Assembly: GCF_037893015.1 (NCBI RefSeq)
Contig: NC_133658.1
Coordinates: forward strand, 61,857,636-61,921,635
Length of the DNA: 64,000 nt
Source of the DNA: Macrotis lagotis
Taxonomy: Eukaryota; Chordata; Mammalia; Peramelemorphia; Peramelidae
Direction of reading: 5' to 3'
The position numbers and the translations under genes are program-made. The notes beneath the pieces were generated by a model. That model searched no databases, was not told the DNA's origin, and saw only the letters and a list, made by a program, of their open reading frames with translations. Every line of letters begins with the position of its first letter. Position 1 is the first letter of the stretch. Below, piece after piece: positions 61,034 through 63,514 of the stretch.

Positions 61034-61568
61034 GCCTCCTTTCGTACAGGACTGATCCAAACTCCCGGATGACCCGGGTCCAGGGGCCCCTCCAGGGCCC
61101 CCCACTTAGCCTCTTCCTGTCCGGGTAAGCCTGGGACAGAGCGGTAACGATGTTGCTTTCCCGGGGCCGCTGGCTCGGCCCCCCCAGGCCCGGCCTTGTG
61201 GCCCCCCACGCGCCCCCCACGCGCCCCCCACGCCCCGCAGGCCCACGAGGCGCCCCGGCCGGGCGGGCTCGGAGGAATCTCCTTCTCGGCCAGGAAAGGC
61301 CGGGTCGGGGAGCGGTTGGGCGCGCCCCGGTCCTTGGGGGGCTGCGGGCACGGCGGCCGTGGGGAGGGTCGCCCTCCCCTGCCCGCCGGGGAGCCCTCCC
61401 CGCGACTCCACCGCGCCTTCCCGCCCGTCCTGAGGAGAAGGGACCCGGGGCGGGGGGCGGCGGCGGGGACGAGCCCGGGGGCCTACGAACCTCCGGGGCT
61501 CCGCGATCCGGGGCGGCGGCGGCGCCTGGTCCGCGGGGGCTTCCGTAGCGCGGCGGCGCCGGCCGGCG

Positions 61569-61576
61569 TGACGTCA
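61569..61576. promoter_or_regulatory. perfect CRE (TGACGTCA) in shared DDX28/DUS2 promoter region
   Basis: TGACGTCA is a full palindromic CREB/ATF site 64 bp upstream of the DDX28 ATG, inside the CpG island. Such sites cluster near start sites of CpG-island and bidirectional promoters. Being palindromic it could serve DDX28 (+) and DUS2 (-) alike. No TATA box is evident. Confidence 0.6.
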
Positions 61577-61639
61577 CTGCCGCGCGCCCGGCCCGTCGCG
61601 CGTCGCCGGGGCCCGTGGCGGCGCGGGGGAGGCGCGGGG

Positions 61640-63514
61640 ATGGCGCCGGGGGCCGGGCCGCGCCTGCTGCTGCTGCTGCTCCGGCGGGGCCTGGCCTCGG
61701 GGGCGCCCCGGGAGCCGCTGCCCGTCATCCGCGTCCCGCAGCCCCTGCAGCTGCGGCGCCAGGCGCGGGCCCGGGGCGAGGCCGCCCCGCCGGCCGCCGT
61801 GCCCCGGCCCGGGCCGCTGCTGATCGCGGCGCGGCGGCCCGAGCTGAGCCAGCCCGCCCGGCTCACGCTGGGCCGCTGGGAGAGGGCGCCGCTGGCCTCG
61901 CGCGGCTGGAAGCACCGGCGCTCGCGCGGTGACCGCTTCTCCATCGAGCGCACGCGGCGGCAGGCGCCGGCCCTGGAGGCTCGGGTCCGGGCGGAGGCCG
62001 CGGCGGGGCGGCAGGAGCAGGCCGCGGCGGGGCCGGGGGAGCAGGCCGAGGCTGGGCCGGAGGAGCAGGCCGCGGCGGGGCCGGGGGAGCAGGCCGAGGC
62101 CGGGCGGCAGGAGCAGGCCGCGGCGGGGCCGGGGGAGCAGGCCGCGGCCGGGCCGGAGGAGCAGGCCGCGGCGGGGCGGCGGGAGCAGGCCGCGGCCGGG
62201 CCGGAGGAGGCCAAGGCTGGGCCGGAGGAGCAGGCCGCGGCCGGGCCGGAGGGGGAGGCCTTGGCCGGCTTCGCGGCCCTGGGCCTGCAGCCCCTCGTGC
62301 TGGAGGCCCTGCGGCGGGCCGCGCTGGCCGTGGTGCGGCCCACGTGGGTGCAGGCCCGGGCCGCGCCGCCGCTGCTGGCCGGTCGCCACCTGCTGTGCGC
62401 CGCCGAGACGGGCAGCGGCAAGACCCTGAGCTACCTGCTGCCCCTGCTGCAGCGCCTGCTGCGCCGGCCCAGGCTGCCGGCCGCCCGGCCCGCGCCGCGG
62501 GGCCTGGTGCTGGTGCCCTCCCGGGAGCTGGCGGAGCAGGTGCGGGCCGTGGCGGGGCCCCTGTGCCGCCACCTGCAGCTGCGGGCGCGCGACATCGGCG
62601 GCGGCCGCGGCCTGGGGCTCGTGCGGCGGCAGCTCGCCCTGCGGCCCCCCGCCGACCTGCTGGTGGCCACGCCGGGCGCCCTGTGGAAGGCGCTGCGGGC
62701 CGGCCTGCTGAGCCTGGAGCGCCTCTGCTTCCTCGTGCTGGACGAGGCCGACACCCTGCTGGACCCCAGCTTCCTGGAGCTGGTGGAGGCCATCCTGGGC
62801 CGGAGCCCCATAGCCCGAGACCCGGCCGAGCTGGAGGACCCCTTCGACCCCCGCGCCCAGCTGGTGCTGGTGGGGGCCACCTTCCCCGAGGGAGTGGGCC
62901 AGCTGCTGGGCAGACTCACCGACTTGGCCGCTCTCACCACGCTCTCCAGCCCCAGGCTGCACTGCCTCATGCCCCACGTCCGGCAGGAGTTCCTGAGGCT
63001 GAAGGGAAGCGACAAGGTGACCGAACTCATCCAGCTCCTCAAGCTGCGCGGAGAAGACGGCCCTGGCTCCCCCGGGGCTGTTCTGGTGTTTTGTAACAGC
63101 TCCAGTACGGTCAACTGGCTGGGCTACATCCTGGATGACCACAGAATCCGACACTTGAGGCTTCAGGGACAGATGCCCGCGGCCATGAGAGCGGGCATCT
63201 TCCAGTCCTTCCAGAATGGCTCCAGGAACGTTCTCCTCTGTACAGATATAGCTTCTCGGGGCCTGGACAGTACTCGGGTGGATCTGGTGATCAATTATGA
63301 CTTTCCACCCACGTTGCAGGACTACATCCACAGAGCTGGCAGGGTGGGCCGAGTGGGGAGTGAGATGCTGGGATCTGTGATTAGTTTTGTCACTCATCCT
63401 TGGGATGTGGAACTGGTTCAGAAGATTGAGTTGGCAGCCCGAAGAAGGAGAAGCCTACCAGGGATAAAGACACGTGTTAAAGAACCTTTGCCCCCAATAG
63501 AATTGACATCTTAG
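61640..63514 (+). CDS. DDX28: DDX28, mitochondrial DEAD-box RNA helicase (intronless)
   Basis: The product is a 624-residue ATP-dependent RNA helicase of mitochondrial RNA granules, known in human to be needed for assembly of the mitoribosome large subunit. The N-terminus [16 protein letters not shown] is Leu/Arg-rich and lacks acidic residues, as expected of a mitochondrial presequence. Next comes [20 protein letters not shown] and [10 protein letters not shown], shared with human. Helicase motifs: a Q-motif-like F211 to RPTWVQ238; motif I AETGSGKT (255-262); DEAD (368-371); GAT (412-414); [18 protein letters not shown] (534-543); and HRAGRVGR (564-571). Human DDX28 is 540 aa; the excess is a tandem repeat at residues 120-206 (separate entry). 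The start chosen is the first in-frame ATG (GCGGGGATGG). The frame is open upstream to 61196 but has no ATG there. There is no intron, as in other mammals. GC content is extreme up to about 63080 and near average after it. Confidence 0.97.
61997..62257 (+). repeat. DDX28: coding minisatellite in DDX28, 11 units of about 8 residues
   Basis: Ten 24-nt units and one 21-nt unit run in frame and encode [79 protein letters not shown] and AAAGPEGE. The array sits between the N-terminal extension and the Q-motif region, where human DDX28 has only about 8 residues (RKLSSKGS, from memory). The sequence is almost pure G and C. Because units are multiples of three, length changes would keep the frame. 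Confidence 0.93.

Follow-up and report, generated by a model that had tools for sequence, protein, structure and literature searches.

What is an 11-unit tandem repeat doing inside the coding sequence of a mitochondrial helicase, and how did it come to be there? In a window of 64,000 nucleotides from the bilby Macrotis lagotis (the whole stretch of DNA that we analyzed, on contig NC_133658.1), a first-pass annotation had placed such a repeat within DDX28, between the N-terminal region and the helicase core. We consider it very likely that this is an ordinary coding minisatellite, which grew in frame at a linker that tolerates changes in length, and that its product is probably a flexible acidic spacer that leaves catalysis as it was. 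We describe the gene and its protein, then the array itself and its possible origins, and then what the repeats encode.

The gene and its protein

Three features define the locus:

61640 to 63514, plus strand: DDX28 coding sequence, a single open frame of 624 aa plus the stop, from matches to DDX28 in the PDB and from Pfam
2454 to 40623, minus strand: coding pieces of DUS2, from 12 tblastn matches (12/12 on the minus strand)
61040 to 61639, no strand assigned: GC-rich sequence upstream of DDX28 (CpG island), toward DUS2, from GC content and the orientation of DUS2

The listing of open reading frames gives 624 codons without interruption, from an ATG at 61640 up to a stop that ends at 63514. 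When we compared the protein to the PDB and considered the best 60 of 179 matches, chains of DDX28 ranked at the top (E = 1.3e-219, 7.2e-218, and 8.4e-88), and the next match had E = 8.4e-42. (The third-best DDX28 chain is a 232-aa helicase fragment, and the linker lies outside of its coverage.) Two Pfam domains, PF00270 (DEAD, E = 9.6e-29) and PF00271 (Helicase_C, E = 6.3e-27), pass their curated cut-offs, and all 21 of the 21 helicase-type matches in NCBIfam fall under theirs.

The DUS2 pieces cover residues 1-391 of 493, with small gaps; the query was the human DUS2 protein. The two genes, DDX28 and DUS2, are head to head and are separated by a GC-rich region, as in the human genome. Judging by its sequence and by this neighbor, the gene is DDX28. 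Given the gene order, the upstream region, whose GC content is 0.77-0.85 in overlapping 500-nt windows, may be a promoter that is common to both genes. The same GC-rich region also contains a perfect small tandem array of 3 x 11 nt (GCCCCCCACGC) at 61201-61233, which is 764 nt upstream of the minisatellite.

Other observations concern the composition of the locus and of the window. There is a steep GC gradient along the DDX28 coding sequence (61640-63514), whose third-position GC is 0.98 ahead of the array and declines to 0.56 in the final part. An antisense frame of 607 aa (61574-63397, minus strand) crosses nearly the entire coding sequence. We do not consider it meaningful: 38 of 300 synonymous shuffles reach a stop-free stretch that is as long or longer, which is compatible with composition alone. 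The window also holds 22 copies (12 on the plus strand and 10 on the minus strand) of a 56-nt SINE core, counted at 75% identity or above, with 45-55 of the 56 bases matching. We take this core to be a putative WSINE1-type CORE-SINE, which fits with marsupial DNA. In the Tasmanian devil, WSINE1 has about 200,000 copies, according to an excerpt of PMC3403934.

Alignments to the PDB chains divide the protein into these parts:

61640 to 61807, plus strand: N-terminal leader, residues 1-56, rich in Leu and Arg and less conserved
61808 to 61978, plus strand: conserved basic N-terminal block, residues 57-113
61997 to 62257, plus strand: minisatellite of 11 units with the consensus AAAGPEEQ, codons 120-206, from Tandem Repeats Finder and unit parsing
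62258 to 62263, plus strand: two codons, GCC TTG, that lead from the array to the helicase core; the alignment resumes at residue 209
62264 to 63496, plus strand: DEAD-box helicase core, residues 209-619, from Pfam and from the alignment with the PDB chains of DDX28

The best match in the PDB, 7oi6 chain x (540 aa), aligns over its residues 16-120 and 126-538, and 9hcc chain z, which ranks second and is also 540 aa long, aligns over its residues 16-120 and 126-537. We take 7oi6 chain x to be human DDX28. In the leader, residues 10-56 are identical to the two chains at 21/47 and 19/47 positions, and from the identity of the gene, the leader would be a mitochondrial targeting sequence. The N-terminal block has a net charge of +9 and is identical to them at 43/57 and 47/57 positions (75% and 82%). 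9hcc chain z is probably mouse DDX28, on the basis of PMC12198368, whose visible part describes assembly states of the mouse mitoribosome and does not show the accession.

These placental chains share the gene, the N-terminal block, and the core with the bilby protein, and the alignment is near full-length except for the linker. There the proteins differ: the linker is 5 residues (121-125) in both of the full-length chains and 95 residues (114-208) in the bilby, and the net excess of the 624-aa protein over the 540-aa chains is 84 residues. These comparisons bear out most of what the first-pass annotation had said about the gene. It had named the gene as DDX28, as the PDB matches and the neighboring DUS2 also indicate; its protein length of 624 aa matches the open frame; and the length of 540 aa that it gave for the human protein agrees with one of the PDB chains. 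Its placement of the array, in frame and between the N-terminal region and the helicase core, fits with the alignable blocks on either side. The array is absent from that chain and from the second 540-aa chain as well. The figure of about 8 residues at the human site was off, since the PDB chains show 5.

By analogy to human DDX28, the bilby protein would be imported into mitochondria and would take part in assembling the mitoribosome. Excerpts of PMC8316566 report that human mitochondrial DDX28 binds domain V of the 16S rRNA and that it prevents the central protuberance of the 39S precursor from maturing.

The array and how it arose

Parsing the array gives ten 24-nt units and one 21-nt unit, arranged head to tail and in frame, which encode 87 residues. 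The shorter unit, and the variant at the end, are:

62189 to 62209, plus strand: unit 9, 21 nt, which lacks the last codon (CAG)
The final unit of the array encodes AAAGPEGE

Between 61995 and 62260, Tandem Repeats Finder reports a period of 24 (11.2 copies, score 357) and, with a higher score, a period of 48 (5.6 copies, score 399). Self-identity over the same interval is 0.802 at a lag of 24 and 0.821 at a lag of 48. As a control, we shuffled the codons of the DDX28 coding sequence 300 times, and the maximum over lags of 9-60 was 0.498. The array is real and is far outside of what chance would produce. With units of tens of nucleotides that lie within a coding sequence, and with unit lengths (24 and 21) that preserve the frame, it is a coding minisatellite. 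Its coordinates, its strand, and its division into ten longer units and one shorter unit are as the first-pass annotation described them, but the stretch is not "GC-only": the 261 nt comprise 152 G, 76 C, 31 A, and 2 T (87.4% GC), so 33/261 bases are A or T.

Pairwise distances between units range from 0 to 6 per 24 nt. Units 2, 4, and 6 have one and the same sequence, and units 7 and 9 agree across the 21 nt that they have in common. There are also exact repeats of 43 nt (offset 96), 40 nt (offset 48), and 36 nt (offset 48). These patterns suggest that both double units and single units were duplicated. The accepted account of arrays of this kind is replication slippage or unequal exchange. 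Here, a 24-nt stretch of the linker, between the N-terminal block and the RecA1 domain, would have been duplicated repeatedly by one of these mechanisms, partly as 48-nt double units, in DNA that is very GC-rich and G-skewed. The array would have stayed in frame because the unit length of 24 is divisible by three and the linker tolerates changes in length. (All of the units are in frame, but just one of them deviates in length, so the retention of the frame adds little.) The change was presumably a gain in this lineage.

Could the array be an artefact of assembly, either as a whole or in its number of units? The region is 84-87% GC (0.84-0.86 in the surroundings of the array), and such sequences tend to lose coverage. 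Against this, the units vary in sequence, no stop codon interrupts the frame, and exact repeats within the array reach 43 nt at most, so that every unit should be placeable with reads of ordinary length. An artefact is very unlikely to explain the array. In particular, it is unlikely that the array was invented; the number of units might be wrong, if coverage is low at such GC content.

Another explanation is that the array matters as DNA or RNA, as a G-quadruplex, a hairpin, or a regulatory repeat, and that the protein product is incidental. The skew is strong (152 G vs. 76 C), a loose pattern for two-G quadruplexes has 75 overlapping matches within the array, and 31% of its 25-nt windows have a G4Hunter score of at least 1.2. 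Such windows make up 0.3% of the preceding part of the coding sequence, 11% of the GC-rich sequence upstream of the gene, and, for the two parts of the core, 0.2% and 1.9%. However, the array's mean G4Hunter score of 1.00 is lower than for shuffles of its own bases (n = 500; mean 1.16, standard deviation 0.06), and 61601-63514 has no plus-strand match to the canonical quadruplex pattern, with runs of at least three G. RNA folding gives z = -1.55, and 15 of 200 shuffles fold equally well. A search of 61985-62270 for inverted repeats of at least 12 nt was negative. As an account of the array, this is highly improbable. As for a quadruplex or a hairpin that drove the growth of the array, the support is mixed.

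If the array is a coding minisatellite that grew by duplication, then where did its first unit come from? It might have been seeded from the segment of DDX28 that encodes motif Ia (62536-62559), which matches a rotated form of the 24-nt unit at 20/24 positions and in the same frame. When the codons of 62258-62900 were shuffled 300 times, just 2 shuffles had a match that good, and everything that precedes the array on the plus strand yields 18 at best. But this match was found post hoc, the minus strand of the window has a match of 19/24, and it could be due to chance. We also searched for remnants of the unit near the array. In the 124-nt flanks, the best match is 17/24 on each side, which 33% and 24% of 200 base shuffles equal, and in 61640-61996 the best is again 17/24, which 261 of 300 codon shuffles equal. 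A scan of viral contigs for the array gave 10 pattern matches, and tblastn found no relative among them. We rejected an intron with its donor site inside the array, as the array has zero GT dinucleotides and the frame is continuous through it.

A probable acidic spacer and selection on the units

The 87 residues of the array include 30 Ala, 18 Glu, 15 Gly, 11 Gln, and 8 Pro. Their entropy is 2.41 bits, compared to 3.86 for the core, and their mean TOP-IDP score is 0.348, compared to 0.087 for the core. By its charge and hydropathy, the array would be classed as disordered, as would residues 57-113. Based on its composition, the array is likely to be disordered. When AlphaFold2 was run on the single sequence, it assigned most of the array to coil, but the model failed for the whole protein, even for the core (mean pLDDT 36.4, with 596 of the 624 residues below 50), so we count it neither for nor against disorder.

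The insert is acidic and the protein is otherwise basic, as the first-pass annotation had noted: the net charge is -13 for the array, +33 for the remaining protein, and +18 for residues 1-119. The calculated isoelectric point falls from 11.4 without the array to 10.5 with it. Most likely, the array is a passive and flexible acidic spacer of Ala, Gly, and Glu, with a nearly neutral effect, which would give the N-terminal block a longer connection to the helicase and leave catalysis unaltered.

Selection might instead have favored the array as a functional acidic tether, which would partly neutralize the basic N-terminus and tune RNA binding or the protein's reach on the large subunit of the mitoribosome. 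The opposite charges of the array and residues 1-119 are consistent with this idea, as is the array's position closely downstream of a block that is conserved in both PDB chains. Also in its favor are human DDX28's action on the central protuberance of the 39S precursor (PMC8316566, in part) and the case of yeast Dbp7, another helicase for ribosome assembly, in which the terminal extensions matter, according to the abstract of PMC9960301. On the other hand, the array is missing from the two other DDX28 chains, and silent changes are not overrepresented among the variants of the units (2, vs. 8 that change the amino acid). We think that a selected tether is unlikely. A more specific form, in which a tether that was selected in the marsupial lineage extends the reach between the block and the helicase, and in which its variable length tunes the assembly of the large subunit of the mitoribosome, is quite unlikely.

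The variants deserve a closer look. Relative to the consensus, the 11 units have 10 distinct variant codons, and a tally of all departures in all units gives 14 that change the amino acid and 6 that are silent. Among random single changes to the consensus, 75% would change the amino acid. The ratio of 8:2 is near this expectation without selection, so the sequence of the repeat does not itself give evidence of a function. (This is a weak test for purifying selection on the unit, of which we see no sign, as the variants are few and the units may have been copied from each other.) Codons 1 (GCC) and 4 (GGG) are invariant across the array (11/11 units) and codon 7 nearly so (10/11), which could reflect some constraint or recent homogenization.

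The length of the array might also vary between individuals. In a survey of human coding repeats, mostly with short units, all of the variant repeats had identical units, according to the visible part of PMC1273636. Many of the DDX28 units differ, so variation in copy number is a weaker bet than the first-pass annotation had implied. If relatives do differ in their number of units, then the array would be a convenient marker.

The bilby's DDX28 is a natural experiment on length in an assembly factor for the mitoribosome: the linker is about 19 times as long as in two other mammalian chains, and the frame is intact. It bears on how tightly the N-terminal block needs to be coupled to the helicase. 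Otherwise, it is one more case of the growth of a minisatellite, in a GC-rich exon that is close to a promoter.

Comparison with known repeats

With a 100-aa query that includes the array, the sole match that phmmer found in the PDB, up to E = 1, was HeliScrew4 (9zem, E = 1e-5), which from its name would be a designed repetitive protein. Like the array, its repeats are composed of Ala, Glu, Gln, and Pro, but they also contain leucines, isoleucines, and other residues that are missing from the DDX28 units. We read this match as common composition and not as descent.

Among natural proteins, the PRNP octarepeat is a mammalian coding repeat whose unit has the same length as in the DDX28 array. 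This kind of feature is ordinary. The instance in DDX28 appears to be unreported in the open-access literature that we searched, where, judging by titles and the beginnings of abstracts among the matches listed, no repeat in DDX28 is described. According to excerpts of the survey (PMC1273636), a coding repeat of variable length is likely in about 1 in 20 human proteins. The coding minisatellites and in-frame tandem repeats of mammalian genes in that survey likewise have units of 3n nucleotides, expand in frame, and encode products of low complexity. The array in DDX28 differs from them in that its units are heterogeneous, in its pattern of 48-nt double units, and in its host, which is a mitochondrial DEAD-box helicase.
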